IMG/VR virus record: IMGVR_UViG_3300022752_004319
Span: 1 to 64,000 of that record
Source of the DNA: a virus
Length of the DNA stretch: 64,000 nt
Reading direction: 5' to 3' (one strand)
Each line of letters opens with the position of its first letter. The first letter of the stretch is position 1. The notes below the pieces were generated by a model. The model saw only the letters and a list, made by a program, of their open reading frames with translations, was not told the DNA's origin and searched no databases. This document shows positions 44,506 through 63,509 of this stretch, piece by piece. Made by a program: the position numbers and the translations under genes.

Positions 44506-47484
44506 ATGGCTTATCAAAACATTAATCAGTATGTCAAATCAAAATTGTATTTACAACCTGTTTTACAAATTTCTGATATTTCGTTGGCTGCTGATGAGAG
44601 AGAATACAATGAAGAAGTTGTGTTTTCACCACTTATAATTGGCGCAAATGATGGTGATGTTTTACCTGTCAAAATTGATTTAAATTTTTCTGGATCCTCT
44701 CAAAAAATCAATTTGACTTTTGGTGATTACAAAAGAGAAAACGTAATCATTTCTGAAAATTATTATAATCCATACGATTATATTTTAGATTGTTTTTCTG
44801 GAAAAAGTATTTGTGATATCGGCTTGACTGGTACGGATAATGGTTTGGTTACAGGAATGACGGGACAGAGCATTTCTTACACCGAAGGACTATTACCAGA
44901 TAATACAAAATTTGATCGATTGAAATTTGATCGTAGATTGAAATTATTTCAAGTTACAGGATATACGAGCCATCCAAATCATAGATTTTCAGGAATAACG
45001 GCTGAGACCTCGTATGAAATGGTTTCTTATACCGCAAACACCATAGGAACTTACAACGAATTGTATGGAGGATTTTACCAAGGGTTTTATGAACTATTTG
45101 GATATGGATACAAGATACTACCTGAAAGATACACCAAAGGTTGGACTGTAGAGATGACATTGAAACCTAGGATATACAATCAATATACAACCCCGTCTGG
45201 TAAGACAACATTAAATTCATATTACCCCAATAATTCGGGAATATTTTTTTATATGGGAACTCGTGCCGAAAACAAATATTGGCATTTTGCACAAGGTACA
45301 AACCCAACAGATCCAAATTACGATAGAGTAACTAAAAGACTTTTAGATTTAAGTACTTGTGATTGCAAAACACTTAATCCTGGTTACTCCACAAATTCAA
45401 CGTCTCAATTTGATTTGGGTGTTTCAGGAGCAACAATACAAGTAGGTCAAGATTTATTATGGACATCAGGCGACACTTGTGTTGTTTATCATAACGAAAT
45501 TGCATTCCTAACTGGGAATGTTATTGGGTATACAGCATCGACTAATTCATTACAATTTGTTACGACTTATCGTGTGGGTAAAGGAGATTTCAAATATTGG
45601 GTTGTAGATAAATTAAATTTCTTGGAATACAATAATTCCGATTGTTATTTTGTTTATCCCCCAACAGGTGTTACTGATTATCACTACACGGAAAGTCCTT
45701 GTTGTCCAGATGAACCCCAAGTACCTGTCCCTGAACAGGATGCTGCTTACAATGGAATGTCTAATGCTTTAGCTATAAGATTTAGTGGCGACCCAACTAA
45801 CCCAAAAATTTGTATACGTACATTAACAATGACAGGTGATTGCATCACAAGTGGAAGTTGTGAAACTACTGGATATGAATCGCAAACAGGTTACTCAATA
45901 AATAACTATTGTACAACTAGGAGAATATACGATGATTGTAGTGGAACAACTTATTCTTTGGGTGAAAATTGGGTTTTAGTCGACGTTAGCTTTGAAAGGA
46001 ACACCGCACTTGATGAATGTGATTTGGTCTATCTTGGTGGATTAGGTGTAATATCGAATATGGTATTCACAGCATCTACGGATAGTAATTCAGTATCACT
46101 TATCTCTCCACCAATAACTCATTACCAACTAAACCCAGAAACAGAAGAACTTGTACAACTAAACAATGATTGGCTTCTTGAAAAGGGATTTCGGAAAGGT
46201 AAATTGAGAATTTTTGTTAATGGTAAGTTATTTGAAACTTTCGATAATGTTGAAGAAATAATACCTAGAGGTTTGTATGGACACAAAGAAACTCAAGTGG
46301 GTGTACCATTCAATATTTCTTGGGGTGGTGGTACTCAAGGATTGCATGAAAACCTAGTATTCAGTGCTATACCAACAACCGATTTGAACTATTACATACA
46401 AGATCCCGAATTGTTTCCACCAAATATTTTGAGTGGAACAAGTCTCAGTGCTTTAACAACAAATATTCTTATTGAACAAAACTTTGCTGGCACTTTTGAT
46501 GGGGGTATATCATCATTTTCTATGTATGCAAAACCTCTGACTATTCCTGAGGTTCAACATAATGCGAGAATACTTAAACCAAAATATAATTTTTTAAATC
46601 CTTTTTGTCTGAATTGTATTGATTCAACCCCAACACCTACACCTACAATAACTCCAACATTAACTAAAACACCAACAAATACTCTAACACCAACCAACAG
46701 TCAAACACCAACCAACACTCCGTCAAACACAGTTTCTGGAACATTAACTCCAACACCAACCAATAGTCAAACACCAACCAATAGTCAAACACCAACCAAC
46801 ACTCCGTCAAACACAGTTTCTGGAACATTAACTCCAACACCAACTAACACTCCGTCAAACACAGTTTCTGGAACATTAACTCCAACACCAACCAACACTC
46901 CGTCAAACACAGTTTCTGGAACATTAACTCCAACACCAACCAATAGTCAAACACCAACCAACACTCCGTCAAACACAGTTTCTGGAACATTAACTCCAAC
47001 ACCAACCAATAGTCAAACACCAACCAACACTCCGTCAAACACAGTTTCTGGAACATTAACTCCAACACCAACTAACACTCCGTCAAACACAGTTTCTGGA
47101 ACATTAACTCCAACACCAACCAACACTCCGTCAAACACAGTTTCTGGAACATTAACTCCAACACCAACCAATAGTCAAACACCAACCAACACTCCGTCAA
47201 ACACAGTTTCTGGAACATTAACTCCAACACCAACAGTTACTTGTGGTGGTGTTTTATATCCAAATTTAGGTATCGATAATGACCAAACAACAGCTTGTTC
47301 CTCTTCGGGTAATAATTTATATGGTATTAGAGCAAGTTTTGATGATCTGGTAAACGGTGATTTTTTATATTATGATGTTTGTCTTTCGAATATTTACAAT
47401 TCTGGTGGATATATTTCAAATGGAAATACATATGTTTTTAATTTGAGTCCCGGTGGTCAAAACCTAACTCTTGGTTCATGTTAG
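44506..47484 (+). CDS. Large Thr/Pro-repeat virion protein with LamG-like domain (fibre 1)
   Basis: The 992-residue protein has a beta-rich N-terminal region and a concanavalin/LamG-like segment near residues 500-700 (WVLVDVSFERN, LRIFVNGKLFETFDN, GGISSFSMYAKPLTIPEVQHNAR). A mucin-like Thr/Pro linker of tandem repeats follows (about residues 706-911), then a small C-terminal beta module with ACSSSGNNLYGIR (about 912-992). No signal peptide is present, consistent with a virion part rather than a secreted protein. The C-terminal module also ends the 1356-residue protein at 54778. A glycosyltransferase cassette follows at once, so the Thr-rich region may be a glycan carrier. Confidence 0.82.
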   Translation: MAYQNINQYVKSKLYLQPVLQISDISLAADEREYNEEVVFSPLIIGANDGDVLPVKIDLNFSGSSQKINLTFGDYKRENVIISENYYNPYDYILDCFSGKSICDIGLTGTDNGLVTGMTGQSISYTEGLLPDNTKFDRLKFDRRLKLFQVTGYTSHPNHRFSGITAETSYEMVSYTANTIGTYNELYGGFYQGFYELFGYGYKILPERYTKGWTVEMTLKPRIYNQYTTPSGKTTLNSYYPNNSGIFFYMGTRAENKYWHFAQGTNPTDPNYDRVTKRLLDLSTCDCKTLNPGYSTNSTSQFDLGVSGATIQVGQDLLWTSGDTCVVYHNEIAFLTGNVIGYTASTNSLQFVTTYRVGKGDFKYWVVDKLNFLEYNNSDCYFVYPPTGVTDYHYTESPCCPDEPQVPVPEQDAAYNGMSNALAIRFSGDPTNPKICIRTLTMTGDCITSGSCETTGYESQTGYSINNYCTTRRIYDDCSGTTYSLGENWVLVDVSFERNTALDECDLVYLGGLGVISNMVFTASTDSNSVSLISPPITHYQLNPETEELVQLNNDWLLEKGFRKGKLRIFVNGKLFETFDNVEEIIPRGLYGHKETQVGVPFNISWGGGTQGLHENLVFSAIPTTDLNYYIQDPELFPPNILSGTSLSALTTNILIEQNFAGTFDGGISSFSMYAKPLTIPEVQHNARILKPKYNFLNPFCLNCIDSTPTPTPTITPTLTKTPTNTLTPTNSQTPTNTPSNTVSGTLTPTPTNSQTPTNSQTPTNTPSNTVSGTLTPTPTNTPSNTVSGTLTPTPTNTPSNTVSGTLTPTPTNSQTPTNTPSNTVSGTLTPTPTNSQTPTNTPSNTVSGTLTPTPTNTPSNTVSGTLTPTPTNTPSNTVSGTLTPTPTNSQTPTNTPSNTVSGTLTPTPTVTCGGVLYPNLGIDNDQTTACSSSGNNLYGIRASFDDLVNGDFLYYDVCLSNIYNSGGYISNGNTYVFNLSPGGQNLTLGSC
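46690..47235 (+). repeat. Coding tandem repeat array, TPSNTVSGTL units (9 copies)
   Basis: Nine copies of a unit encoding TPSNTVSGTL are separated by Thr-Pro linkers. Successive spacings are 84, 48, 48, 66, 66, 48, 48 and 66 bp. Units are near-identical in DNA, differing mainly by a silent C/T in AAC(C/T)AAC. The order 48(T)-48(C)-66 occurs twice, showing a block duplication. Confidence 0.93.
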
Positions 47485-47602: not shown

Positions 47603-48856
47603 ATGAAAATATTCGTTCAAATTGCCGCATATCGAGATCCAGAATTGATTAAAACAATCAAAAGTTGTATTGAAAATGCAGAAAATCCAAAAAACTTAAC
47701 TTTCGGTATTGCTAGACAATTCCATCCAGATGATAAATTTGATGATCTTTCTGAGTATATGTTAGATGAAAGATTTAGAATTTTGAACATTCCCCACGCA
47801 GAATCCAAGGGTGTATGTTGGGCTAGAAATCAAGTACAACAACTTTACAATAAGGAACAATATACACTTCAAATTGATTCACATATGAGGTTTGCTCCCA
47901 ACTGGGACAAAGAAATGATTCAAATGATCAAACAACTACAGAAAAAAGGACACAAAAAACCTTTATTAACTGGATATGTATCATCATTTGATCCTGATAA
48001 TGATCCTGGGGCTCGAGTACAAGAGCCTTGGAGGATGGTTTTCGACAGGTTTATTCCAGAGGGCGCTGTATTTTTTCTTCCTGAAACAATACCAAATTGG
48101 CAAAGTATGACTGAACCAGTACCTGCAAGATTTTACTCAGCACACTATGCATTTACTTTGGGTAAATTCTCAACAGAAGTTCAACATAATCCCGAATATT
48201 ATTTTCATGGTGAAGAAATTTCTATAGCAGCAAGAGCATATACTTGGGGATATGATTTATTTCACCCTCATAAAGTTCTTATTTGGCATGAATACACAAG
48301 AAAAGGTAGAACCAAGCAGTGGGACGATGATAAAAATTGGGTGGAAAAAAATAATGTATCTCACTTGACAAACAGAAAGTTATTTGGGATGGATGGTTTA
48401 GAACAAGAAGGTCATACTGGAAAGTATGGATTTGGAAAAATTAGATCCCTAAAAGATTATGAAAAGTTTTCAGGATTACTTTTTGAAAAGAGAGCTGTAC
48501 AACAATATACCTTAGATAAAAACTATCCACCAAATCCTTACAATTATTCTTCTGAAGAAGAGTGGAAAGCTGATTTTGCTTTAATATTTAAACATTGTAT
48601 CGATATTGGATACTCTCAAGTTCCTGAACAAGATTACGATTTTTGGGTTGTTGCATTCCACGATGAAAATGATGAGACTATTTTTAGAAAAGACGCGGAT
48701 AAATCAGAAATTTCAAGAATGATGAACGATCCTGACGGGTATTGTAAAGTATGGAGAGAATTCCAAACAATACATAAACCAAAATACTGGGTAGTTTGGC
48801 CACACTCCGAGTCTAAAGGATGGTGTGAAAGAATTAGCGGAAATTTACCATTTTAA
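47603..48856 (+). CDS. Polypeptide GlcNAc-transferase-like glycosyltransferase (GT60/PF11397 type)
   Basis: N-terminus IFVQIAAYRDPELIKTIKSC is typical of PF11397. The signature YTLQIDSHMRFAPNWD (about residues 91-106) places the D-x-H metal site. ARVQEPWRMVF, PARFYSAHYAFTLGKF and YYFHGEEISIAARAYTWGYD complete the expected order. Family members transfer GlcNAc to hydroxyls of Ser, Thr or hydroxyproline in polypeptides, including mucin-like Thr/Pro sequences. It follows the Thr/Pro-repeat fibre gene. It extends about 110 residues beyond the core, ending in WVVWPHSESKGWCERISGN, whose function is unknown. Confidence 0.8.
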   Translation: MKIFVQIAAYRDPELIKTIKSCIENAENPKNLTFGIARQFHPDDKFDDLSEYMLDERFRILNIPHAESKGVCWARNQVQQLYNKEQYTLQIDSHMRFAPNWDKEMIQMIKQLQKKGHKKPLLTGYVSSFDPDNDPGARVQEPWRMVFDRFIPEGAVFFLPETIPNWQSMTEPVPARFYSAHYAFTLGKFSTEVQHNPEYYFHGEEISIAARAYTWGYDLFHPHKVLIWHEYTRKGRTKQWDDDKNWVEKNNVSHLTNRKLFGMDGLEQEGHTGKYGFGKIRSLKDYEKFSGLLFEKRAVQQYTLDKNYPPNPYNYSSEEEWKADFALIFKHCIDIGYSQVPEQDYDFWVVAFHDENDETIFRKDADKSEISRMMNDPDGYCKVWREFQTIHKPKYWVVWPHSESKGWCERISGNLPF

Positions 48857-48868: not shown

Positions 48869-49486
48869 ATGTATATTTCCCAATTAGGTCAAGATAAATT
48901 TATTGACGAATTTTTTGAAAAAAAAGAAAATCTCACATTTCTGGACGTTGGAGCTCATGATGGTGTTACCATATCAAACACTTTTTTTTTAGAAAAGACT
49001 AGAAATTGGAATGGGATATGTATTGAGGCTCAACCTACGATATTTGAAAAATTAAGAGTTAATAGAAATTGTATATGTGTAAATGTTGCTGTTTCAAACT
49101 TTGAAGGTGAAACTGATTTCACATATGTTGAGGGATATGCAAATATGTTGTCAGGTATTTCAGATGAATACAATAAAACACATATAGATCGTATTAAGGG
49201 TGAGGTTAATCATTATGGGGGTGAAATAAATACAATTAAAGTTCCTGTAAAAAAATTACAAACAATATTGGATGAACATAATATGGTTGATATAGATTTC
49301 TGTACTATAGATACCGAAGGTTCCGAATTTAACATTGTTCAATCTATAGATTTTGACAGAACCAATATAAAAGTATTCATAATAGAAAATAACTATAAAG
49401 AAACAAATATCCAAGAATACTTGGAAATAAAGGGTTATCAACTCTATAAAAAATTAGAGTGGGATGATATTTTTATTAAAAAATAA
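48869..49486 (+). CDS. FkbM-type SAM-dependent methyltransferase
   Basis: SAM motif FLDVGAHDGVTISNT (about residues 25-39), acidic loop GICIEAQPTIF and signature IDFCTIDTEGSEFNIV. It is closely similar in motif order and length (205) to the enzyme at 27140 (202), including a MLSGI segment; the two are probably paralogues. It is followed after 5 bases by a GT10-like gene, as in the other cluster. Likely methylates a glycan hydroxyl. Confidence 0.88.
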   Translation: MYISQLGQDKFIDEFFEKKENLTFLDVGAHDGVTISNTFFLEKTRNWNGICIEAQPTIFEKLRVNRNCICVNVAVSNFEGETDFTYVEGYANMLSGISDEYNKTHIDRIKGEVNHYGGEINTIKVPVKKLQTILDEHNMVDIDFCTIDTEGSEFNIVQSIDFDRTNIKVFIIENNYKETNIQEYLEIKGYQLYKKLEWDDIFIKK

Positions 49487-49491
49487 TTGAA

Positions 49492-50304
49492 ATGAAAAAA
49501 ATAAATTTTTTTGACGAAAATTTGTTAGGTCAACCAGGTCTATCTAGATATCTATCACCAAATTTAGATTGGTGCCGAGAAACTAATGATTACGATATCG
49601 CAATTTATACTGATAAAATGTGTTTTTCACAAAAATTAGATAATTCAAAAATAAATTGTGCTTGGATTATAGAGCCACCAATCATTAACGTTGAAAATTA
49701 TCGTGACATTGTGATTAGTCAAGATAATTTTAAATACGTTTTTACACACAATAAAAATACATTATCCAATTTAAGAAACGGAGTATATGTACCTCACGGA
49801 GGTACATGGTTAAGAGAAGAAGATATTAACGTTCATCACAAAACTAAAAATTGTAGTTTTATTTTTTCAAACAAGGATTGGAATTCATACCATAGACTAA
49901 GACACAGAATTGCGGTTAGATTTGAAAATGACGATAGGGTTGATTTTTTTGGAAGTGGATCAAAAAACCCAGTAGAATTTAAAATTGAGGCTTTGAAGGA
50001 CTATATGTTTTCAATTGTTGTAGAAAATTCAATTGAATCAGATTACTTCACTGAAAAAATTTTAGATTGTTTTCTATCAGGAACTATTCCAATATATTTG
50101 GGTAGTAAAACAACTTCTAACTATTTTGACAGTGAGGGGATTATTTATTTTGATGGGGATGAAGATTTACCAAATATTTTGGAAACATTAAATACTACGT
50201 TATACGAATCAAAAATTGATTCAGTTAGAAAAAATTTTGAGTTCGCTAAAAAATATGTTTTCCCTGAAAAAATAATTCAAGAATATCTAGATCAAAATGT
50301 TTGA
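49492..50304 (+). CDS. GT10-like fucosyltransferase
   Basis: GT10 donor motif FSIVVENSIESDYFTEKILD followed by CFLSGTIPIYLGSKTTSNYF (about residues 163-202). The N-terminal GT-B part includes FTHNKNTLSNLRNGVYVPHGG. It lies 5 bases after the FkbM gene, the same pairing as at 27140-28587. Length 270. Expected to use GDP-L-fucose or an analogue. It overlaps the next gene by 8 bases. Confidence 0.87.
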   Translation: MKKINFFDENLLGQPGLSRYLSPNLDWCRETNDYDIAIYTDKMCFSQKLDNSKINCAWIIEPPIINVENYRDIVISQDNFKYVFTHNKNTLSNLRNGVYVPHGGTWLREEDINVHHKTKNCSFIFSNKDWNSYHRLRHRIAVRFENDDRVDFFGSGSKNPVEFKIEALKDYMFSIVVENSIESDYFTEKILDCFLSGTIPIYLGSKTTSNYFDSEGIIYFDGDEDLPNILETLNTTLYESKIDSVRKNFEFAKKYVFPEKIIQEYLDQNV

Positions 50305-51061
50305 CAACATTGTAATTACTGGAGCAAATAATATTTACTACGAATCACTATTGACTTTAATTAGTAGTATTCATAAGTATGCTATCAATCAAGTTGATAA
50401 AGTACTTGTTTATGATTTTGGGTTAGACCCAACTGAAATCGAACATTTGAAAAAACTGAAACTTGTGGAAATAATCACAATTACCGAGGTTTTTCCTGTT
50501 TGTGAAAAAATTACATCAAAAAAAATCAAATCTCATTTTTGGAAGATGTATGCTTTACAAAATTCAAAAAAATTTGGTAAAAACATTTTATGGTTAGATG
50601 CTGGATGTTGTTTAATAGACAATATGTCATCTATTTATGAAAAATTAATAAATGATCAAATTTTTGTGGTTGGGGATTATTCTCATCCAAATTATAACTT
50701 TACACATAGTTTGTGTAAAACAATTATGAATGTTTCTGAAAAAGAAATTAATGATTATCAGATTTCATCTGGTATTTTTGGTTTCGTGTCAGATGGTAAA
50801 TACGATGAATTAATAAATAAAAGTTGGGACTATACTTTGATAGATGGGTGTATTGATGGATTTTATGAAAACCATAGACATGACCAAAGTATTCTTTCAA
50901 TATTGATTTCTAGATATGACTGCCCACGTCAAGACATTGACATCTATGGTTACTGGACAGATATAAATCGAGATTTAGAAAGTGCAAAAAATAAAGGGGC
51001 AGTTATTTTTGTTCATAGACGAGGTTACTGTGATAAAACAAATCTATTATATGAAAATTAA
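50297..51061 (+). CDS. DUF1647/GT8-like putative glycosyltransferase
   Basis: The start FDNIVITGANNIYYESLLTLISSIHKY and VDKVLVYDFGLDPTEIEHL fit the DUF1647 pattern (T-x-A-x-x-x-Y...L-x-x-S-hHk, VYDhGL). ILWLDAGCCL occupies the DxD-like site of GT8-type folds, and HRHDQSILSIL matches the family's terminal His-x-x-x-Gln-x-hh motif. Acceptor is unknown. It overlaps its upstream and downstream genes by 8 and 11 bases. Confidence 0.72.
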   Translation: MFDNIVITGANNIYYESLLTLISSIHKYAINQVDKVLVYDFGLDPTEIEHLKKLKLVEIITITEVFPVCEKITSKKIKSHFWKMYALQNSKKFGKNILWLDAGCCLIDNMSSIYEKLINDQIFVVGDYSHPNYNFTHSLCKTIMNVSEKEINDYQISSGIFGFVSDGKYDELINKSWDYTLIDGCIDGFYENHRHDQSILSILISRYDCPRQDIDIYGYWTDINRDLESAKNKGAVIFVHRRGYCDKTNLLYEN

Positions 51062-51773
51062 TTTTAATGAAATTCCTAAATTTGTTATAAATTTAGAAAG
51101 AAGATCCGATAGATTAGATTTGGTAACTAAAGAATTTGAGTATATGGGTTGGGAATTTGAAAGATTCAATGCTGTTGATACGAACAGTTATTTAGGTTGT
51201 GCTTATTCCCATCAACAAATAGCTCAAATAATACTAGATAGAGGGTACAAATTTGCTATGGTTTTTGAAGATGACATTTTTTTTATGCCTTATACAAAAA
51301 AAATGATCCCAATTATAGAAGATGAATTGAATAACACTGATTGGGAATTTTTCCATTTTGCACCATCAATACATCGTCCTCTTTTGAAGTGGTCAGATAA
51401 TTTGGTTGATTTAACCAATCCACCACCAAAAAAAGAAAATCATAGAGAAATTTTTGGCACGTCTGGATTTATTTTGACACCATCAGTATGTGATATGATT
51501 ACTAAATGGAACACAAATGAGATAATTGAAAACAGCCATATGCAAAAACCAATAGATGAATTTTTAGCTTTAGCTGTATATCCACGATTACAATCTTTTT
51601 CAGGAAAATATCCACTTGTAACACAGAGGGCAGACTTCTCAGACATAAATCGTACATTTGATAGTAATCATTATGTTATGACTTATCAATGGAATGTTTA
51701 TTATCCAGATAAATTAGATAATCAATACTTGGATTTTGATTATTGCTTAAACTTAAGAAACAATGAAAATTAA
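51051..51773 (+). CDS. GT25-like (LPS-type) glycosyltransferase
   Basis: The open frame begins at 50982 inside the previous gene; the ATG at 51051 gives the GT25 N-terminus MKINFNEIPKFVINLERRSDRL. The family's FAMVFEDDIFFM (DxD-like, about residues 67-78) and the C-terminal GTSGFILTPSVCDMI plus PLVTQRADFSDI are present. Length 240 is normal. The 11-base overlap with the 50297 gene supports coupled translation. Confidence 0.85.
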   Translation: MKINFNEIPKFVINLERRSDRLDLVTKEFEYMGWEFERFNAVDTNSYLGCAYSHQQIAQIILDRGYKFAMVFEDDIFFMPYTKKMIPIIEDELNNTDWEFFHFAPSIHRPLLKWSDNLVDLTNPPPKKENHREIFGTSGFILTPSVCDMITKWNTNEIIENSHMQKPIDEFLALAVYPRLQSFSGKYPLVTQRADFSDINRTFDSNHYVMTYQWNVYYPDKLDNQYLDFDYCLNLRNNEN

Positions 51774-52644
51774 ATTTATAACTTCTATCTATTCCGATTT
51801 GTATGGTACTGATTTTGGCGGTAGGTCAAACAGACGTGATCACTATCGATACAGTTTACTTTCATTGTTAAAAATGTCAGATGCTGACTTTTTGTGTTAT
51901 ACCTCAGATAGAGAAATTCACGATTTAGAAAATTTTTTTTACGAATTAAATTTTATACCACGTGAAAAATTGGAATTTAGGATACAAGATTTATCAAATA
52001 TTAAGACAACAAATTTATTGAATAGATATAAAAATTATAATGATGCAAAAGTATCTGACAGATGTATTGAAATACAATATTCAAAATTTCATTGGTGGTG
52101 GAACGAAGATAGAAGTTATGATTATTATTATTGGATAGATGCGGGTCTCTCTCATTGTGGATTAATTCCTTTGAAATATTTGACTAGTACTCATATTTTA
52201 GCGCAATACTACGAATCACCATTGTTCAATAATACTTTTCTTCACAATTTGATTAAAGATACGGAAGAAAAGTTTTTAATTTTGGGTAAAGAGAACGATA
52301 GAAACTATTGGGAAGGCACTGTGGATCCTAAATGGTATTTTGAATATGACAGATCAATACATATAATTGGTGGTCTTTTTGGAGGTCATCGAGATAGATG
52401 GGATGAAATTGTCAATTTGTTTGAAGACTATTCACAAAAAGTTACTGAGGACGCACAAAGAGTATATTTTGAAGAAAATATTATGAGTTTAATGTGGGTC
52501 AATCATAAACAATTATTTGTTAGAAAACATTTTGACATATGGTGGTGTCCTGATAGTGGTCCCAGAGATGCGTCACCAGAAATATACACACAAAATAAAA
52601 GTTTTTATAGAATTTTGGAGGAATTTAATAGAATTTATGAATAA
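51763..52644 (+). CDS. HtrL/YibB-like putative glycosyltransferase
   Basis: Contains IKFITSIYSDLYGTDFGGRSN at the start, KFHWWWNEDRSYDYYYWIDAGLSH (about residues 106-129) with the W-x-D-A-G core of the HtrL/YibB family, and HIIGGLFGGHRDRWDEI (about 199-215). The family is thought to be glycosyltransferase-like. It shares the same features as the N-terminal half of the next protein, suggesting duplication. It overlaps the next gene by 8 bases (ATGAATAA). Confidence 0.75.
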   Translation: MKIKFITSIYSDLYGTDFGGRSNRRDHYRYSLLSLLKMSDADFLCYTSDREIHDLENFFYELNFIPREKLEFRIQDLSNIKTTNLLNRYKNYNDAKVSDRCIEIQYSKFHWWWNEDRSYDYYYWIDAGLSHCGLIPLKYLTSTHILAQYYESPLFNNTFLHNLIKDTEEKFLILGKENDRNYWEGTVDPKWYFEYDRSIHIIGGLFGGHRDRWDEIVNLFEDYSQKVTEDAQRVYFEENIMSLMWVNHKQLFVRKHFDIWWCPDSGPRDASPEIYTQNKSFYRILEEFNRIYE

Positions 52645-54307
52645 TACAACATTAGTCACTGGTTTATGGAATATAAACCGCGACACATTATCTGAAGGGT
52701 GGTCAAGAAATTTCGATCATTACTTATCAAAATTAGAACAATTATTAAAAATTAACGAAAATCTTATTATTTTTGGAGATAAGGATTTAGAAAAATGGGT
52801 ATTTGAAAGAAGACAACAACATAATACTCAATTTATTGTAAGAGAATTAGATTGGTTCAAAAATGAATTCTACAAAAAAATTCAAAGAATCAGATTGGAT
52901 TCATCATGGTACTCACAATCAAGTTGGTTACCAGAATCAACACAAGCAAAATTAGAAATGTATAACCCATTAGTTATGTCGAAAGTTTTTCTTTTACACG
53001 ACGCAAAAATAATGGACAAATTTGATTCCAAAAATTTATTTTGGATTGACGCTGGGATAACTAATACTGTACACCCAGGTTATTTTACTCACGATAAAGT
53101 ATTAGATAAACTAAATAGATTAAATAATATTACATTTATTGCTTTTCCGTATGATGCTGAGAAAGAAATACATGGTTTTGATTATGAAGAAATATGTAAA
53201 ATATCAAACGCAAAAGTGGATAAAGTGTGTCGTGGCGGGTTTTTTGGAGGACCAAAAGATAAAATCAGTGAATTTAATTCTCTTTATTACCATTTAATGT
53301 CAGATACCCTATCAAGAGGTTTTATGGGTACAGAAGAATCTTTATTTACAATTTTGATTTATCAAAATTCAGAAAATTTTCAATATTACAAAATAGAACA
53401 TAATGGTTTAATTTCAAAATTTTTCGAGGATTTAAAAAATGATACTCATGTTTTGATGTCTGAGAACGTTTTTGGTGTAGACACAAACAATTCAGATGTA
53501 AATAATACAGCACTTTATGTGATCACATTTAATAGTCCAAAACAATTTGAAACTTTGATAGAATCAATGATTCAATATGACTGTAATTTTATAGACAAAC
53601 CAAAAAAGTACTTGTTAAATAATTCAAGTGATGATTCAACATTTGACAAGTATGAACAGTTGTGTGCTGAATATGAATTTGAACATATCAAAAAAGATAA
53701 TCTTGGAATTTGTGGTGGACGACAATTCATAGCTGAACATGCTGAAGCTAACGATTTTGATTATTATTTCTTTTTTGAAGATGATATGTTTTTTTATCCA
53801 AAAAAAGGAGAAACCTGTAGAAATGGGTTTAATAGATATGTAGATAATTTTTATAATAATATACTTCAAATTACTCAGAAAAATAATTTTGACTTTATAA
53901 AGTTTAATTATTCAGAGTTTTTTGGTGACAACGGTGTCCAATGGTCTTGGTATAATGTACCACAAAGTGTCAGAGAACAACATTGGCCAAATAAAAATAA
54001 ACTACCAGTACAAGGATTAGATCCAAATGCACCGCTAACAAATTACAAAAATATTAGATCTCATAATGGAATTCCTTTTATTGATGGAGAAGTATATTAT
54101 TCTAATTGGCCTCAAGTAGTATCAAAAGAAGGAAATAAAAAAATGTTTATAGAGACTACGTGGGCACACCCGTTCGAACAAACTTGGATGAGCCACATTT
54201 TTCAAGAGACTATTAAAGGACGAATAAATCCAGCTTTACTTTTGATGACACCCACAGAACATAATAGGTTCGATTTTTACGCAAAAGAATTAAGAAAAGA
54301 ATCTTAG
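52637..54307 (+). CDS. Fusion of HtrL/YibB-like and GT2-like domains
   Basis: The frame opens at 52517 inside the preceding gene, but the ATG at 52637 begins the natural YibB-like N-terminus MNNTTLVTGLWNINRDTLS. First domain (about residues 1-290): NLFWIDAGITNTVHPGYF and CRGGFFGGPKDKISEF match the HtrL family. Second domain (about 295-556) is GT2-like: ALYVITFNSPKQFETLIESM, ICGGRQFIAEH, and YYFFFEDDMFF (DxD). Length 556. Both domains may act in turn on the same acceptor. Confidence 0.75.
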   Translation: MNNTTLVTGLWNINRDTLSEGWSRNFDHYLSKLEQLLKINENLIIFGDKDLEKWVFERRQQHNTQFIVRELDWFKNEFYKKIQRIRLDSSWYSQSSWLPESTQAKLEMYNPLVMSKVFLLHDAKIMDKFDSKNLFWIDAGITNTVHPGYFTHDKVLDKLNRLNNITFIAFPYDAEKEIHGFDYEEICKISNAKVDKVCRGGFFGGPKDKISEFNSLYYHLMSDTLSRGFMGTEESLFTILIYQNSENFQYYKIEHNGLISKFFEDLKNDTHVLMSENVFGVDTNNSDVNNTALYVITFNSPKQFETLIESMIQYDCNFIDKPKKYLLNNSSDDSTFDKYEQLCAEYEFEHIKKDNLGICGGRQFIAEHAEANDFDYYFFFEDDMFFYPKKGETCRNGFNRYVDNFYNNILQITQKNNFDFIKFNYSEFFGDNGVQWSWYNVPQSVREQHWPNKNKLPVQGLDPNAPLTNYKNIRSHNGIPFIDGEVYYSNWPQVVSKEGNKKMFIETTWAHPFEQTWMSHIFQETIKGRINPALLLMTPTEHNRFDFYAKELRKES

Positions 54308-54777: not shown

Positions 54778-57700
54778 ATGTCATGTGTAATCTCCCAAAT
54801 TGAAAATTCTACTAAAGAATTAGTAACTATATCATATACCAATTGTGAAGGTACAAATATTACTAATCAGAAAATAGCACCTAGAACTATAATCTCTGTA
54901 ATTTACATTCAGGGTACATTCAGTACCGCTTTTGAGGGTGTTTACATTTTGAGTACACAACCGTATGGGGTGACACCAACACCAACTCAAACACAAGGAC
55001 CTTTGACACCTACGTCAACTCCTAGTCAAACGACAGTTCCACCAACACCAACTGCGACACCAAATGTCACCAACACCTCGACGCCATCCCAAACACCAAC
55101 ACAAACACCAACACGGACTGTTGGATTTACACCGACACAAACACAAACACCAACACGAACTTTACCATTTACAGGTAATTGTGTCAATTGTAATTATTAC
55201 AATGTACAGGGAACTGGATATTTGACATACACAGCATGTTCTAGTTCCACAAATAGTTATGGATTAATACAAAATAGTTATATTGATACCCCTACAGGTG
55301 GCTTTATTGTAATAAATGCCGCTGGAACTCCACAAGTGGTTGGTTCGATAACAATTACACAATTACAACCTAGTGGTTTAGCTTGCGGTACTCCACCATC
55401 AGCAACACCTGTAGGTCCGACACCAACAAACACACCTACAAGTTCTCCGACACCAAGTACTGGATCTGGTCAAAGAATTTCATGTCTCGAGTATAATTTG
55501 AATACATTATCACGTGGAATGGACGAAGCAAATGTTAACATTTATTATACAGATTGTACAACAGGTCAAATATTCATTCAAAGTATGACACCGGGTTTAG
55601 AAACCACAATTTGTTCTAGAAGTTTTCCATATTTTACAGCAGATACAAAAAATGTCTTGATTAACACATCAAATAACCTTTGTGGTAATTTTGTGGTAAA
55701 TCAAACACCAGAACCAACACCAACAAATACTTTAACACCAAATCTTTATACAGTATATCAAGTACAAGATTGTGGAAATGGTTATTTTTACACCGTGAAC
55801 GTACCAAAGTATTCGGGTTTGAGTATTGGTAATATAATTTCATTCAATGATCCAAGCCAAACTTGTGATATTACAGGACAACCTAATTTAAGGTGTGGTA
55901 GATTGAACGCAGTATTGACTAATTATTATGCTGAATCAGTTAGTTATACTTTATTTGATAGTTGTGAAACATGTTCACCCTCGGTCACTCCTACTATGAC
56001 CGCAACATCTACTATTACACCAACTCAAACACCAACAATGCCACTAGATCCTTTGGATTGTGTTTCTTACATCATATCGAATAGTGGTGTAACTTCAGTG
56101 ACTTGGGCATATGTGGATTGTAATAATCTACAAACTCTTTACTTAAATGTCTCTCCACTTACGTACAATCAAGGATTATTGTCATTAATACAACCTGTTT
56201 TGATTTCTGGTGATTCATCAGTTACAAGTGTCATTACGGGAGGAGCTATAGGTCTTATTGTTCCGACACCAACAAGTACAAGCACACCGCAACCAACATC
56301 TACACCAACATCAACTATAGGTCAAACACCAACTCAGACTCCAAGTGTAACAGCATCACCAACACAAACTTGTTTGAATAGTCAACCATGTCAAAGATAT
56401 TCATTGCAAGCAATTTCAACATCTGCAGGTACATTTTTTGCTGTTTATAGAATTACACAATGTAATACTTTCACTCAAGATTGGTCTGTGAATGGATCCT
56501 CACCTGTTGAAGTGTGTTCTTTAACTGTACCAGTCTTAATAAACGGTACTGGTCTATCACCTGTAGTTGTTGGAACTTGTGAAAGAGTTTGTTTACCGCC
56601 ATCACCAACACCAACATCAACTAAAACTTTTGTAACACCAACACCATTTGTAACGTCAACACCAACACCTTCAGTAACTTGTCCTGGAGTTGGTGTTGAA
56701 TGTACTCTTAGATTTCCACGTTTAAATGCACAATCTTACAATCAATTGATAGCTATTGGTCAATATCCTGTAAAAGCAAATTATACTGGTTGTACAGGTA
56801 TTGCTGGGGAAATTATAATTTCAGCTAATACAATACAAGTTCCTAATACAAATTTTTATAGTTCAAATATACCAGTTTGTGTTTCGAATACTGAAACAGT
56901 GTTTCGTAATATGAACAACGAAATCGTAAATGTATTCTCAAATTGGTCCTCAAGTGCAGGTCCTTGTGGTCAATACTGTATTCCACCAACACCAACACCG
57001 ACAATTTCATTAACACCATCAATGACACCATCGACTTCAATTGCGGCAACATCTAATGATACAATTTTCTTATACTATGCGCAATCAGGTGATACGATAT
57101 CATTACCTTATATTCAAGGTGGTGATTACGATGGTACAATCTATTGGGGTGATGGAACTTCGTCGGTAAATAGTTACGCAAACAGAACACACACATACAA
57201 TAATAATACTGGAACATTAAGAAATCCTGATTTCCCAATATGGACAGATCCGAACAATGTTAGAAGAATTGTTATTGTCGGAAAAGTGTGGGGTTTTTCT
57301 TTGAAAGATGTACCTTTAAGTGAAAAAATACGATTCAAGGGCATTCAAAATTGGGGTAATTTTAGTTTCTATAATAATGATGGTTATTATTTCAATTATT
57401 TAGATTTAGTAACCGAAACAACTACTTTATTATACGGAATTGCTTTACCAACAACTGGTTATCCACTTTTAACTTACAGTGGTGGTAATATAACTAATAT
57501 GGAATTTGCATTTGCTGGTGCAAGTCCTTATGGTTACTCAACAACAACTAATGTTCCATTTGATGCTAGTAATTTCAATGTTTCTGGAATAACAAATATG
57601 CGAGGTATGTTTAATTTTAATTGGAATACAGTAAGTGGTCTAGATTACTGGGATACTTCAAATGTAACAAATATGTCTAAAATGTTTAAAAACGGATATA

Positions 57701-58848
57701 GTGGTGATGTGACTAGGTGGAACACCTCGTCAGTTACTGATTTGTCTGAAATTTTTATGTACATTGGTAATTTTGTATCAACACCACTTTCATTAGCTTC
57801 AACAGGATCAAGTCGTTGGGATGTTAGTAATGTTACAGATTTTTCTAGAGCTTTCTATGGTAACAACAAATTTAGAGGATTAAATAGTTCGGCGTCAGAA
57901 AATGATGTAATCGCGTATTGGAATACTTGGCAATACTGGGATGTAAGTTCTGGTGAAAATTTTGATGAAATGTTCAGATTTGCTGGTGGCGCACAGGATT
58001 TCAGTGGATCAACAGGTGTTACTATAAGTTATACTGGTTGGTGTACAACAAATGCACAACAATATTATAATTTTTCTTTTGGGACTGAACTGTACAAATT
58101 AAAAATTATCCCACCAATTTGGGGTACTTGTCCAGCCCCCCTCCCAACACAAACACCATTTGCAACACCAAGTCCAACACCGACAACTAGTATAACACCA
58201 TCACCATCGGTAACAACATCGGTCACACCGTCGGTAACAATAACCAATACCCAAACTGTTTCTCCGACCCAAACACCAACAACAACTGTAACTCCAAGTA
58301 ATTCGGTAACACCGACGACTACAAACACACCAAGTGTTTCACCAACAAACACAACAACACCAACAAATACCGTATCACCCACACAATCACCATCCATTAC
58401 ACCAACTAGTACCCAGACTGGAACACCACCACCATCAGGAACAAACTTCCCAACTCCAACACCGTCAGTCACAAACACTCAAACACCAACAACAACTGTA
58501 ACTCCAAGTAACTCTGTAACACCGACGACTACAAACACACCAAGTGTTTCACCAACGAACACAACAACACCAACGGTAACTAACACACCATCATCTAGTG
58601 GTATTGTGTCTTACACTTACACCAACTTAGGTACTGGCGGAAGTGATACTGAAGCTTGCTCAGAAAGTGGAAACACATTCTATGGTGTGAGATCAACATT
58701 TGCTGGTTTACAAATTGGTGATATACTTTACACAGATTCAGGTTTGACCACTGCAGCTGTCGGATTTAGTTATGTATCGAATAGTGTTATTAATTACCCT
58801 GTTGATGGTGGAACAGGTCAAATTATAGCAATCTCAGCTCTCTGTTAA
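54778..58848 (+). CDS. Giant Thr/Pro-rich modular virion protein with BspA-like LRR (fibre 2)
   Basis: The 1356-residue protein alternates small Cys-bracketed beta modules (starting near residues 138, 236, 428, 537, 641) with Thr-Pro linkers of the PTPTQTPT type. A PKD/Ig-like segment with IYWGDGTSSV (about 785) is followed by a DUF285/BspA-like leucine-rich region (about 905-1075). This includes YWDTSNVTNMSKMFKNG and RWDVSNVTDFSRAFYGNN. A long Thr/Pro linker (about 1120-1275) and a small terminal module (YTNLGTG, ACSESGNTFYGVR) end it. No catalytic site is seen. It is likely a virion fibre or surface protein. Confidence 0.8.
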   Translation: MSCVISQIENSTKELVTISYTNCEGTNITNQKIAPRTIISVIYIQGTFSTAFEGVYILSTQPYGVTPTPTQTQGPLTPTSTPSQTTVPPTPTATPNVTNTSTPSQTPTQTPTRTVGFTPTQTQTPTRTLPFTGNCVNCNYYNVQGTGYLTYTACSSSTNSYGLIQNSYIDTPTGGFIVINAAGTPQVVGSITITQLQPSGLACGTPPSATPVGPTPTNTPTSSPTPSTGSGQRISCLEYNLNTLSRGMDEANVNIYYTDCTTGQIFIQSMTPGLETTICSRSFPYFTADTKNVLINTSNNLCGNFVVNQTPEPTPTNTLTPNLYTVYQVQDCGNGYFYTVNVPKYSGLSIGNIISFNDPSQTCDITGQPNLRCGRLNAVLTNYYAESVSYTLFDSCETCSPSVTPTMTATSTITPTQTPTMPLDPLDCVSYIISNSGVTSVTWAYVDCNNLQTLYLNVSPLTYNQGLLSLIQPVLISGDSSVTSVITGGAIGLIVPTPTSTSTPQPTSTPTSTIGQTPTQTPSVTASPTQTCLNSQPCQRYSLQAISTSAGTFFAVYRITQCNTFTQDWSVNGSSPVEVCSLTVPVLINGTGLSPVVVGTCERVCLPPSPTPTSTKTFVTPTPFVTSTPTPSVTCPGVGVECTLRFPRLNAQSYNQLIAIGQYPVKANYTGCTGIAGEIIISANTIQVPNTNFYSSNIPVCVSNTETVFRNMNNEIVNVFSNWSSSAGPCGQYCIPPTPTPTISLTPSMTPSTSIAATSNDTIFLYYAQSGDTISLPYIQGGDYDGTIYWGDGTSSVNSYANRTHTYNNNTGTLRNPDFPIWTDPNNVRRIVIVGKVWGFSLKDVPLSEKIRFKGIQNWGNFSFYNNDGYYFNYLDLVTETTTLLYGIALPTTGYPLLTYSGGNITNMEFAFAGASPYGYSTTTNVPFDASNFNVSGITNMRGMFNFNWNTVSGLDYWDTSNVTNMSKMFKNGYSGDVTRWNTSSVTDLSEIFMYIGNFVSTPLSLASTGSSRWDVSNVTDFSRAFYGNNKFRGLNSSASENDVIAYWNTWQYWDVSSGENFDEMFRFAGGAQDFSGSTGVTISYTGWCTTNAQQYYNFSFGTELYKLKIIPPIWGTCPAPLPTQTPFATPSPTPTTSITPSPSVTTSVTPSVTITNTQTVSPTQTPTTTVTPSNSVTPTTTNTPSVSPTNTTTPTNTVSPTQSPSITPTSTQTGTPPPSGTNFPTPTPSVTNTQTPTTTVTPSNSVTPTTTNTPSVSPTNTTTPTVTNTPSSSGIVSYTYTNLGTGGSDTEACSESGNTFYGVRSTFAGLQIGDILYTDSGLTTAAVGFSYVSNSVINYPVDGGTGQIIAISALC

Positions 58849-58874: not shown

Positions 58875-61800
58875 ATGAATTTTCAATATACTACTTGGAA
58901 GAATACACCCACATCAATTACTGATAGTGGACAATGGAACAGTGATAGTACCACTTGGGATCTAATTTCGATCTCTATGGGTAATAAAGACAGAACAGGG
59001 GTCTGGGCAAGAAACAATTGGATGAATTTAAGTATTCCATCAACAATTCAGATTACAATCGGGAACGATAGTGCTATTTATACAGTTCAATTTATTGATT
59101 CAACGAATTCTGAATATGTAACAATCCAACTTGCTTTAGTATCATCAACGGTTTCTTCTACAAATTATATTTTCGAAAAAACAGAAATTGTTGATTTTCA
59201 ACTAATACCTAATGAAGATTCGTGTAGTGATTGTTATACATGGTCATTAATTGGACAAACAACATTAAAATATATTAGTTGTTCATCAGGTGAAACTTAT
59301 TCAAATGTTGTATTGGGTACATTTGTTGGAACCGAGGATGTACCATATTATTTTATATCAGCGGGACAACCAGAAATTATCGGTGAATCTGATAATATTT
59401 TGTTAGAAAACACTGAAAATTTTTGGGGTAAAGTGTGTGGTAAATATAATGAACCAGTTACAGATCAAGGTATTTGTTACACATATTCTATTGTGTCGTC
59501 TGAGATTCAAGAATTTTTTGGTTCATTTAGTGTAAATTATCTAGATTGTAATAACACAGAACAAGTTTTAGAACTTGAAATACCATTTGATAGTAAAAAT
59601 AGTCCATGGTTAAGACAAATTAATTCTGTAAGATTACCTGTCATTTTGGATCCTGAGACCTCTATAGTTGCAAACATTTTTACAGATTACACTGTTGGAT
59701 TTTTACCACCTCCCGAACCATCACAAACACCTATAGTTACTCTTGGTGTTCCTTTTAAAACAGCTAAAGTAAGTATATTTGAACAATATGTGGTTTATGG
59801 TTGTCAATATTTAACATATACAGTAAATAGAAACCCATCTGTGGATCCAAGTTTACAGACTCAACTTATTACTTATGTTGATTGTAATGGGATCAGACAA
59901 ACAGTACCAAGAGATCCAGGTAGATACTCCACCTATATGAGAAGACCAGAATATCAACCAGGGATTAATTACGCTTTTGGAGTTATAGAATCACATAGTT
60001 GGTTTTATTCTTCCGTTACGGTAAATTATCCAACACCTCCACCTATAACCTTTACTAATATACAAGCTAGTCCTTTTGGATATCAAAATTTAGGACCTTC
60101 TGGTTGTACTGTATCGGTAGTTGAAATTGGTACGCGATATAATCCATTAAATAATGTGTCTGTAGGTAATACAATATCACTTAACATAATTTCTGGTTCT
60201 ACCATTGCAGGTTATTTTACCCAATCTGTGATATGTGGAATTGTTACGGATCTTGATAGTGCAATACCGTATGATAGTGTTATGATATCTGGATACAATT
60301 CTTGTAGTTCTTGTATCACGGTTCCGACACCAACACCTACCCCAACACAAACTCAAACACCGGGACCATTCGTTGTAACACCTAGAGTAACCGCAACAGT
60401 TCAATGTCCTCAGGGAATGGTTCCAACATATGTTTGGGCCGTAAGGGCTACAGGAAGATGTACATTCAATTCACCCTGTACAGCGACCCAATTATTAATT
60501 CAAGCTGATAGTGGTGGTATTGCACCATACAATGAAACAGGGATTGTATGTAATCCATTTTATTTATATTCTTTTAATGATGGAACTCCAGCGTCGTGGT
60601 GTAATGGAACAACATTAACCAATAGAAATTCTAACATAAAGTACGTTGCTTCACAACAACGCCCTCAACTAATCGGAGCCTTTAGTGGTAATAGTCAAGT
60701 AATTGATACAATTACTTGTGATTATTTATTTCAAACTTGGATTGTAGGAACAGCAAATCTAGATACAAATGGTAATTTATATTCATTTTTACCTTTCACA
60801 TCGGCTTGGCTTCCACAAATAAGTGCATGCACAGTACCATTTAATTGTAATGTGAATGTTACACCAACAAGAACTCCTCGCCCCACACCAACACCTACAT
60901 CGTGTGGTGGTACAAGTTGGGGTCAATATGTTGGAAATAGAATATTTTTCAGTAGAGCTGGATCTACAATAAATAGTGCACAATACGTAGCTTTTAGTGG
61001 TAGTCCACAATTAATTGTTGGTTCCTTAGAAGATGGAATTGTTGGCGTTTGTAATTGTCAATACCCTTATGATTGGTTAAATTGTGCGGAAAAAAATCCA
61101 GCATCAACATTAGGTTTGGAAATTATTGGAGATGGTGCTGTTACGTTTCAATTTTTGAGCCCAGTGACTAACCCCCAATTAGCAATTTATTCACTTGGTA
61201 ATAATCTAGCTTACACTGAATGTAAATTTTCAAGTTACAACGGGGTTGAGTACGTACCAGTTATGAGTGGCGGGACTTCACAAGGATTTACTTTATCATG
61301 TATAGGATCAACTTTTTGGAATGCTAGTCCTGTTTTATCAATAGGTGATGGTATTTCTGGTGCGGAAGCATATACAATAGTGCAATTTACTGGAACCTAC
61401 ACAAATATTGCACTTTCTTTATCAGGAAATACAACATATACTAGTTTTGTTTGGGGAATTCCTTGTAGTCTACCACCAACACCAACACCAACACCAAGTG
61501 TAACATCTAATTGTCAAGTTTGTCCTTGTTATACTTGGGAATTCAATCCAAACCCTGTTGGAGTTACAGGTACCACAATAGGTTCTACACAAACTATTTT
61601 TAGTTATTCGGATTGTTCAGGTATTCAAAGAACAATTTCTCTTGGTCTTGGTAATATAGGTAATACGTTCTGTATGGCTGAACCAGGTCCGACATATCTA
61701 CAGGGACTAACAGGATTTACATGGACAAGATTGGCCGCCTGTGGTACACAAAATTGTGTGGGTATATGTAATTGTTCGTCACCTAATGTCAGATGGGCTT

Positions 61801-63509
61801 CATTCCTTAGTGATAGTTATATTGATTTTAACAACGGTGTAACGGCATCAATAAGTAACACTGGACCATCTACCGCTGTAAGTGTTGGTCCTTTGGTAAG
61901 TTCTTTTTATAATCAACTTGATTGTGTAAAACCTGCAAATTCATCACAACAATTCCTGAGACTTGAGAATGATGGTTTATACAATATTAGGTTTTCATCC
62001 GCAGTATCTACACCATTGATGGTTATTATGGGACTTGGTTCAACAAATTTTGCAGGTACAATTCAAACAAATATTGGTTTTGTGCCTAATTGTTTAGACA
62101 ATTTGAATTTAAATTTAGGGACAAGAACTATAATTGGTAATAATGGATTTGGTATAGTACAATTTACAGGAACTGTTACTAATTTAACTTTCACATTTAC
62201 ACCACCTAGTGGTTCCACAGGTTCTGCGAGTGACTCGAGAGTTTGGATTTCATTTGGTATTCCATGTACTCCAGTCTCAACCCCTACACCAACACCAACA
62301 CTTACACAAACTATTACACCAACTAATACTCAAACACCACCACCATCAGGAACAAACTTCGCAACTCCAACACAAACAAACACTCCGACTATAACTCCAA
62401 CGATAAGTGTGAGTAATAGTCCTGATAGTAGTCCAACACCAACTCCAAGTTTAACAAGTACATTAACACCGACAGTGACTAATACACCGACACAAACATC
62501 TTCTAGTACTCCAGTACCTACAATAACACCAACCTGTACAGGTTCAACTCAAACATGTTCTACCTACAGGTTATTAGGTGGTGGTGGTGGATTTTCAACA
62601 TTTTACACATATTTTGATTGTAGTACTGGTGCTGCCATTTCAGTTGTAGTAACAACAACAACACGTGTTGAAGTTTGTAGTAGATTTGCTCCTGTTTGGG
62701 CTGTTGTAAATGGATCCTCAACTGGTATAGTGGTACTAGTTTCATCAGGATGTGGTACATATTGTTCAAGTTTATCCACAACTTTAACCCCAACACCAAC
62801 ATCGACTACTACACCAACCACAACTACAACACCGACTAGAACGCCACTATCAACATCCACACCAACACCCACTGTCACAAACACACCAACATTGACAGCT
62901 ACAAAAACCCAAACACCAACTCCAACTAGTAGTTTGGGTGCAACACCACAACCAACACCAACTAATACATCTTCACCGACATTAACAATGACTCCGACAC
63001 CATCACCAACAATTGCTGGTTGTACTTGTATTGAGTATTCTATTGTATCACCACCAGCTGGTGAGGCGCCTCTAGAGATTGGTTGGACAAGTTGTTTCAA
63101 TAATTCTAAATTTACATTGAGTAATCCGACCGCTTGGACACTTACATCCGATAAGCCAACCCCGGGTCCGTTTAACTTGTTTGCTTGTGAAGGTTCACTA
63201 TCACTATCGCCAGAAATTTCAAGTATTGAAGCAGTTGGAGAAAACGGTACTTGTAAATGCTTTGAATTCTTTATCAATTCAACTGAATATAATAAAGCGT
63301 GTAGAAATGATGTGTCGGTTTGGTACCAATGTTGTACAGGTGAAATTTTACAATATCAGGTCACAAGTTTGAACTTTACAATATCTGCTTTGAAAATTTA
63401 CAGTGTGATAGGCTTATCTTCTGATTGTGGAACTTATCAATATTTACCAAAATCTGTTTGGGTTGAATTAGGTGACAGTGGAGTAACTGAGTGCGGCACG
63501 GGTTGTTAA
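58875..63509 (+). CDS. Giant Thr/Pro-rich modular virion protein (fibre 3)
   Basis: The 1544-residue protein begins with MNFQYTTWKNTPTSITDSG and a beta-rich N-terminal region. A series of Cys-bracketed modules follows (starting near residues 201, 310, 884, 1227, 1384, 1462), linked by Thr/Pro stretches at about 482, 662, 865, 1133-1218 and 1303-1378. Two longer domains (about 676-864 and 950-1132) share VQFTGTYTN / VQFTGTVTN segments and look like an internal duplication. No signal peptide or catalytic motif. It is the third member of this fibre set. A strong terminator follows. Confidence 0.78.
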   Translation: MNFQYTTWKNTPTSITDSGQWNSDSTTWDLISISMGNKDRTGVWARNNWMNLSIPSTIQITIGNDSAIYTVQFIDSTNSEYVTIQLALVSSTVSSTNYIFEKTEIVDFQLIPNEDSCSDCYTWSLIGQTTLKYISCSSGETYSNVVLGTFVGTEDVPYYFISAGQPEIIGESDNILLENTENFWGKVCGKYNEPVTDQGICYTYSIVSSEIQEFFGSFSVNYLDCNNTEQVLELEIPFDSKNSPWLRQINSVRLPVILDPETSIVANIFTDYTVGFLPPPEPSQTPIVTLGVPFKTAKVSIFEQYVVYGCQYLTYTVNRNPSVDPSLQTQLITYVDCNGIRQTVPRDPGRYSTYMRRPEYQPGINYAFGVIESHSWFYSSVTVNYPTPPPITFTNIQASPFGYQNLGPSGCTVSVVEIGTRYNPLNNVSVGNTISLNIISGSTIAGYFTQSVICGIVTDLDSAIPYDSVMISGYNSCSSCITVPTPTPTPTQTQTPGPFVVTPRVTATVQCPQGMVPTYVWAVRATGRCTFNSPCTATQLLIQADSGGIAPYNETGIVCNPFYLYSFNDGTPASWCNGTTLTNRNSNIKYVASQQRPQLIGAFSGNSQVIDTITCDYLFQTWIVGTANLDTNGNLYSFLPFTSAWLPQISACTVPFNCNVNVTPTRTPRPTPTPTSCGGTSWGQYVGNRIFFSRAGSTINSAQYVAFSGSPQLIVGSLEDGIVGVCNCQYPYDWLNCAEKNPASTLGLEIIGDGAVTFQFLSPVTNPQLAIYSLGNNLAYTECKFSSYNGVEYVPVMSGGTSQGFTLSCIGSTFWNASPVLSIGDGISGAEAYTIVQFTGTYTNIALSLSGNTTYTSFVWGIPCSLPPTPTPTPSVTSNCQVCPCYTWEFNPNPVGVTGTTIGSTQTIFSYSDCSGIQRTISLGLGNIGNTFCMAEPGPTYLQGLTGFTWTRLAACGTQNCVGICNCSSPNVRWASFLSDSYIDFNNGVTASISNTGPSTAVSVGPLVSSFYNQLDCVKPANSSQQFLRLENDGLYNIRFSSAVSTPLMVIMGLGSTNFAGTIQTNIGFVPNCLDNLNLNLGTRTIIGNNGFGIVQFTGTVTNLTFTFTPPSGSTGSASDSRVWISFGIPCTPVSTPTPTPTLTQTITPTNTQTPPPSGTNFATPTQTNTPTITPTISVSNSPDSSPTPTPSLTSTLTPTVTNTPTQTSSSTPVPTITPTCTGSTQTCSTYRLLGGGGGFSTFYTYFDCSTGAAISVVVTTTTRVEVCSRFAPVWAVVNGSSTGIVVLVSSGCGTYCSSLSTTLTPTPTSTTTPTTTTTPTRTPLSTSTPTPTVTNTPTLTATKTQTPTPTSSLGATPQPTPTNTSSPTLTMTPTPSPTIAGCTCIEYSIVSPPAGEAPLEIGWTSCFNNSKFTLSNPTAWTLTSDKPTPGPFNLFACEGSLSLSPEISSIEAVGENGTCKCFEFFINSTEYNKACRNDVSVWYQCCTGEILQYQVTSLNFTISALKIYSVIGLSSDCGTYQYLPKSVWVELGDSGVTECGTGC

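Follow-up and report, generated by a model that had tools for sequence, protein, structure and literature searches.

Genomic organization of the locus

The DNA analysed here, bases 1-64,000 (the window) of a 131,753-bp viral record (G000, itself a fragment) from a freshwater phage whose T4-like head module comprises terminase, portal, head protease and major head protein, encodes on its plus strand three giant proteins with long tracts rich in threonine and proline (Thr/Pro, hereafter TP; the proteins are called TP1, TP2 and TP3). Between the first two lies a cassette of glycan enzymes, which begins with a glycosyltransferase (GT) of the PF11397/GT60 type and ends with a protein called HtrL-GT2, and which we examine here together with the TP proteins as a candidate protein-glycosylation system.

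TP coverage was scored in windows of 30 residues (at least 60% T+P+S, at least 27% T and at least 15% P), the mean of 200 residue shuffles per protein being the control. The initial annotation of this DNA had described giant Thr/Pro-repeat proteins at 44506, 54778 and 58875; all three are present there and their tracts are far above the shuffles. TP1 (44506..47484, 992 aa), a proposed acceptor like the other two, has an N-terminal part kept in relatives, a tract at residues 699-916 (DNA 46600-47253) with a coverage of 218 aa versus 0.8 after shuffling, and a short C-terminal domain; the DNA repeat array it contains at 46.6-47.2 kb was recovered by Tandem Repeats Finder (TRF) too. Homologues of its non-repeat part occur in 37 of the 105 enzyme-bearing loci used for the cassette comparison, which include near-copies and for which relatives of the GT60 enzyme were taken from IMG/VR. 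No TP1 relative was found in the annotated phage collection, so that its virion location is not transferable from proteomics. TP2 (54778..58848, 1356 aa) is made of beta-rich modules split by five TP tracts (378 aa of coverage versus 20) and matches DUF285, a BspA-like repeat (E 6.7e-21), while TP3 (58875..63509, 1544 aa; phrog_15511) combines repeated beta modules with three tracts (236 aa versus 3.8). At least five further TP-rich open reading frames (ORFs), absent from the initial annotation, lie elsewhere in the record, one of them (76678-79197) directly before the tail sheath gene (79476) and two after baseplate genes. Because sheath and baseplate genes adjoin them, a tail or fibre role for the TP-rich ORFs of this record is likely, if not certain.

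The first and last enzymes of the cassette

The product of the first cassette gene (47603..48856, plus strand), our proposed initiating polypeptide N-acetylhexosamine (HexNAc) transferase, matches PF11397 with 223 bits (cut-off 21, E 1e-65). Across 29 aligned sequences, with identities as low as about 37%, D92-S93-H94 (DNA 47876-47884) and H229 (DNA 48287-48289) are invariant; the enzyme carries DxH instead of DxD plus the conserved C-terminal His, following the motif definition of a survey of GT-A enzymes published in eLife (PMC7185993). According to this survey, families GT27 and GT60 both have DxH for DxD and both O-glycosylate Ser/Thr of polypeptides, and a review reports that the mucin-type glycans of T. 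cruzi and Dictyostelium are initiated by GT60 enzymes (PMC8724618). Single-sequence and profile searches found no solved structure homologous to the product by sequence. Its AlphaFold2 (AF2) model (predicted local distance difference test, pLDDT, of 85) has a GT-A fold, and the top PDB matches are almost only polypeptide GalNAc-transferases (GalNAc-T4, T2, T1, T7 and T12 and Toxoplasma GalNAc-T3), with an E value of 3.5e-10 against GalNAc-T4/T2 and a root-mean-square deviation of about 4-5 Å for the catalytic domain over 250-290 columns, these being the shorter alignments. This likeness supports a polypeptide as the acceptor class but falls short of proof, since GT-A folds are broadly alike. 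PF11397-like folds are present also in Megaviridae and Pandoravirus. A randomly drawn 140-kb viral record has, at G095:C1:88404-90932, two PF11397 enzymes in tandem, which share 45% and 57% identity with that of the window.

The last cassette enzyme, HtrL-GT2 (52637..54307, plus strand), which we propose as the extender of the O-glycan, matches HtrL_YibB (E 1.6e-14) and has a second GT-A domain. Its AF2 model (pLDDT 91) consists of two tandem GT-A domains, and its PDB matches are LH3, LARGE1, COLGALT1 and the chondroitin and heparosan synthases, that is, bifunctional or tandem transferases acting on proteins and on glycan chains. HtrL-GT2 is found in 84 of the 105 enzyme loci, and an HtrL-GT2-like sequence occurs in 16 of 80 bacterial loci. 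In one bacterial locus (L567), a single ORF of 969 aa holds the GT60 enzyme at residues 1-408 and HtrL-GT2 at 418-969; bacterial fusions of the two occur also in L558, L608 and L556 (the last cut by the contig end), and in L546 the order is reversed and only the HtrL half is joined to the PF11397 enzyme. The fusion of both in one polypeptide in some bacteria argues for a joint pathway. HtrL-GT2 as the travelling partner of the GT60 enzyme is new here.

Association of the enzyme with TP-rich proteins in phages and bacteria

Co-occurrence of Thr/Pro proteins and PF11397 in relatives was a test set beforehand by the initial annotation, and it was borne out by the following comparisons. A TP-rich ORF lies directly upstream on the same strand in 30 of 51 non-redundant enzyme loci versus 42 of 494 (8.5%) other genes of the same loci (odds ratio 15), an adjacency whose P value is not to be taken literally because the loci are related by descent. 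The TPTxTPT coding pattern is present in all 23 enzyme-positive records, several of which are near-copies of one another, versus 10 of the 16 fragments from this clade that were enzyme-negative; read backwards, the pattern gave almost no matches. When viral contigs of at least 50 kb were drawn at random, 30 by the TP pattern and 40 by three arbitrary 14-mers, the enzyme was encoded by 12 of the former and one of the latter (Fisher 8e-5). Four of these 12 have the enzyme at only 30-42% identity, and the sole positive contig among the arbitrary ones is itself TP-positive.

Among 50,697 phage records, the enzyme is encoded by the cultured phages XacN1, CM1 and RAS14 only, and in the same collection these three alone have a full-length HtrL-GT2. 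In XacN1, a jumbo phage of Xanthomonas, the genes follow the order ORF334 (GT60), 333 (carbamoyltransferase), 332, 331 and 330 (HtrL-GT2), and ORF334 and ORF330 are homologous to the two core enzymes (48% and 39%, respectively). In the three genome regions covered, at least 13 annotated ORFs of this phage contain TP tracts, the longest of several hundred residues, and three of these ORFs (ORF369, 370 and 372) stand within ORF369-372 beside the sheath ORF367. The XacN1 report describes at least two glycoproteins detected by proteomics (PMC5852040).

Homologues of the enzyme also lie on bacterial chromosomes, where a TP-rich protein adjoins it in Saprospiraceae (L533), Jiulongibacter sediminis (L540), Vicinamibacterales (L556) and Acidobacteria (L593). 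On inspection by eye, the N-termini of these four TP-rich neighbours show an RR motif with a hydrophobic stretch after it, resembling a twin-arginine signal, and the proteins are probably exported; their putative export after folding and modification would agree with glycosylation in the cytoplasm. The chromosomal modules L533, L534 and L540 bring together, side by side, a TP-rich and probably exported protein, the GT60 enzyme and HtrL-GT2. L540 comes from the isolate J. sediminis JN14-9 and includes another GT60 copy as well as a carbamoyltransferase-like gene. In a FastTree phylogeny of 109 sequences of the enzyme, with long branches flagged, the phage rows cannot be placed with fewer than four changes of label; the bacterial rows nearest to the clade of the window are Saprospiraceae and Bacteroidia, and the XacN1/RAS14 pair lies among proteobacterial sequences, distant from that clade, so that TP-rich proteins accompany the enzyme in more than a single lineage. 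The system is wider than the initial annotation supposed, extending to many phages and to several bacterial phyla.

Variable genes of the cassette and neighbouring regions

The seven cassette genes of the initial annotation are all in place between TP1 and TP2, and its labels hold for five of them (47603, 48869, 49492, 51051 and 52637). Besides the two enzymes described above, these are an FkbM-type methyltransferase, possibly a cap-forming enzyme (48869..49486, Pfam E 2.2e-20, in 4/105 loci), a GT10-type, fucosyltransferase-like enzyme (49492..50304, E 1.6e-11, 16/105) and a GT25-type glycosyltransferase (51051..51773, E 3.4e-15, 33/105), all on the plus strand like the remaining two genes, for which the labels did not stand. 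The product of 50297..51061 (9/105), formerly called DUF1647/GT8-like, reaches DUF1647 with an E value of 0.015, under the Pfam cut-off, and has no supported family; that of 51763..52644, formerly called HtrL-like, matches no Pfam family above the cut-off and gives E 0.017 in a single-pair BLAST to an HtrL protein. The latter is a conserved cassette protein (49/105; XacN1 ORF332, 27%), usually encoded directly upstream of HtrL-GT2. An eighth gene, absent from the initial annotation, is the small conserved ORF after HtrL-GT2 (54331..54711, plus strand, 59/105); in the relative L071 a segment homologous to it sits within a 1906-aa TP/DUF285 protein. The occurrence of each gene across the 105 loci shows a cassette with fixed ends, GT60 first and HtrL-GT2 last, and an exchangeable GT10/GT25/FkbM middle.

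A second operon of nucleotide-sugar enzymes and glycosyltransferases, also described in the initial annotation, is real and occupies about 21.5-39.4 kb of the minus strand (21507..39372), with two nucleoside diphosphate (NDP)-sugar epimerase/dehydratase-type enzymes, an NDP-sugar dehydrogenase, an aminotransferase, GT2, GT4, GT10, two GT11 and three FkbM proteins. It possibly supplies donors and decorations for the cassette, a link that we draw by inference. Inside it, at 31232-33669 of the minus strand, a HisC/CobD-like pyridoxal phosphate enzyme stands beside a homologue of the PaaK/FlxY-like coenzyme A ligases, and at its upstream end lie a dUTPase and a 3'-5' exonuclease (39267-39959 and 39959-40660).

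Other features concern the structural genes. An intein carrying an HNH endonuclease (Intein_splicing, E 3e-14) interrupts the T4-like portal gene (4957-7758), whose portal match begins only at residue 412. In the sheath ORF (79476-82709, L083:476-3709; 1077 aa) the best sheath match starts only at residue 787, which suggests a large insertion, possibly another intein. Finally, an ORF of the head region (10197-11909) contains 24-bp and 12-bp tandem repeat arrays at 10490-11042 that code for an acidic repeat.

Proposed mechanism and alternative explanations

Taken from the genes and their arrangement, the most probable reading is that the phage encodes a mucin-type O-glycosylation system which works in the cytoplasm on TP-rich tail or fibre proteins. 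Late in infection, the GT60 enzyme would move HexNAc from its uridine diphosphate (UDP)-sugar to Thr/Ser in the TP tracts of TP1-TP3 and of the other TP-rich ORFs of the genome, acting as phage tail or fibre proteins; the two domains of HtrL-GT2 would add the next sugars, and the exchangeable middle genes (GT10, GT25 and FkbM, with a carbamoyltransferase in other loci) would serve, together with the minus-strand operon, to vary the chain and to cap it. Linkers on the virion surface would in this way receive a sugar coat and become stiff and resistant to proteases; as to purpose, the initial annotation suggested that such a coat might mimic host glycans or resist proteases and receptors. The initial annotation had already assigned the first sugar on Thr-rich linkers to the GlcNAc-transferase-like enzyme and extension to the others; genomic context, structure and literature lend this assignment good support, although sequence leaves it unproven. 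We infer the TP tracts as acceptors, the membership of the TP proteins in the virion, the sugars and the order of their addition. More tentatively, and with somewhat less confidence than an even chance would carry, the phage cassette may be one form of a general prokaryotic mucin-type O-glycosylation, in which TP-rich proteins would be modified in the cytoplasm by a GT60 initiator and an HtrL-GT2 extender and would then be exported folded by bacteria or assembled into tails by phages, phages having acquired the initiator several times.

Several observations weigh against a mucin-type system. The gene directly upstream of the enzyme is not TP-rich in 21 of the 51 phage loci, the loci of the main clade share descent and adjacency P values therefore overstate independence, and the TP signal is nearly absent in L080/L081 (records G033/G034), with two pattern matches only. 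Eighteen of the 30 TP-rich contigs, many of them fragments, are without the enzyme. On the bacterial side, 55 of the 80 homologues have neither a TP neighbour nor HtrL-GT2, so that the presence of PF11397 by itself is no sign of a TP acceptor and the family has other uses; TP adjacency and the presence of HtrL-GT2 do not detectably covary on the bacterial tree, in a test that was underpowered. As for XacN1, the accessible part of its report ties the glycoproteins to no enzyme (PMC5852040), and the phage has another glycosyltransferase, ORF328.

The same genes can be read in other ways. Phage-enzyme glycosylation has been described for capsid and tail-tube proteins (PMC12363180), and the cassette might likewise glycosylate another virion protein of this kind, as in mycobacteriophages, the TP tracts being plain flexible linkers that neighbour it only through the late structural region; many TP-rich phages without the enzyme, and TP linkers without it in fragments of relatives, are in keeping with this. 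We nevertheless hold it to be unlikely, given that the TP association recurs in phage lineages that stand apart in the GT60 tree, among them XacN1 and RAS14, which were not selected for TP, and beside homologues on bacterial chromosomes where no phage structural genes are in sight, and that GT60/GT27 enzymes are known for Thr-rich acceptors (PMC7185993, PMC8724618). A modification of the host envelope (lipopolysaccharide (LPS), O-antigen or capsule) that blocks superinfection is a decidedly improbable explanation: the minus-strand operon does look like O-antigen/capsule clusters, and LPS gene clusters are known to contain members of the GT25 and HtrL families, but the cassette stands among fibre-type genes, the family of its first enzyme uses polypeptide acceptors, and no Wzx or Wzy model matched among the cassette and operon proteins scanned, nor did the Pfam models of Gtr-type O-antigen conversion, the GtrA flippase and the bactoprenyl glucosyltransferase GtrB.

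Chance or shared descent could also have grouped unrelated glycan enzymes in a variable region, without joint function with the TP proteins. The highly variable middle of the cassette and the fact that much of the adjacency signal comes from inside one clade agree with such an origin, which is made very improbable by the fixed order of the two end genes, their retention over wide distances and their fusion in bacteria, and by the contrast between randomly drawn contigs (12/30 vs 1/40). Least probable of all is glycosylation of hypermodified phage DNA, as in T-even phages. The second domain of HtrL-GT2 is weakly like phrog_842, a beta-glucosyl-HMC-alpha-glucosyltransferase (E 4e-5), and TAGT (E 0.045, below the cut-off), but the top PDB matches of its model are protein and glycan tandem transferases, the same enzyme pair is found on bacterial chromosomes, and no protein of the dCMP hydroxymethylase family PF00303 was found in the 131.8-kb fragment containing the window or in the 294,914-bp relative G029. 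Five PF00303 matches, not subtyped, were found in other records.

Relation to known systems and significance

Among the nearest parallels to the mucin-type system proposed here, two are eukaryotic. The protist GT60 polypeptide alpha-GlcNAc-transferases (T. cruzi mucins, Dictyostelium surface proteins and the Skp1 pathway) share the PF11397 family, the DxH motif and Thr/Pro-rich acceptors, and in the Skp1 pathway one bifunctional enzyme adds the next two sugars (PMC8724618), which parallels the role proposed for HtrL-GT2. They differ in using a GT2-GT74 extender and the Golgi, whereas here the extender would be HtrL-GT2 in phages and bacteria, without a Golgi, and a prolyl hydroxylase is not general. 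A prolyl-hydroxylation route like that of Skp1 was considered and rejected: the 2OG-Fe(II) family PF13640 is present in just 2 of 12 enzyme-positive records, so that hydroxyproline is not generally required. The animal GT27 polypeptide GalNAc-transferases, which initiate mucin glycans, provide the closest solved structures to the 47603 model and have the DxH motif in common with it, but identity is about 12%, no lectin domain is visible in the phage product and its donor sugar is only proposed.

Among viruses, the mycobacteriophages Che8, Corndog and Myrna also modify their own virion proteins with phage-encoded glycosyltransferases (Freeman 2023, cited in PMC12363180); their acceptors are capsid and tail-tube proteins, in contrast to the mucin-like TP tracts proposed here, and the accessible text of that source mentions no PF11397/HtrL-GT2 pair. 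XacN1 has both core enzymes and reported glycoproteins in common with our system, with a carbamoyltransferase in the middle of its cassette; in the accessible part of the report on it, the enzymes are neither connected with TP proteins nor assigned to their family, and the partner enzyme goes unremarked (PMC5852040). Giant viruses such as PBCV-1, as cited in PMC5852040, likewise encode glycosylation of their virion proteins, with eukaryotic hosts and different enzyme sets and acceptors. A literature search from which most subscription journals were absent gave no match for phage fibres of a mucin-like kind combined with glycosyltransferases.

Phage particles with O-glycosylated proteins are known from a few mycobacteriophages, in which the capsid and tail-tube proteins carry the sugars. 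If our reading is true, a widespread cassette builds mucin-like glycoproteins into tails, surface glycans would be a normal and evolvable property of very abundant freshwater phages, and this would help to explain why glycosyltransferases are frequent beside phage fibre genes. It would also constitute a bacterial counterpart of mucin initiation in protists and animals, with a two-enzyme core that is testable in the cultured phages XacN1, RAS14 and CM1 and in the isolate Jiulongibacter sediminis.

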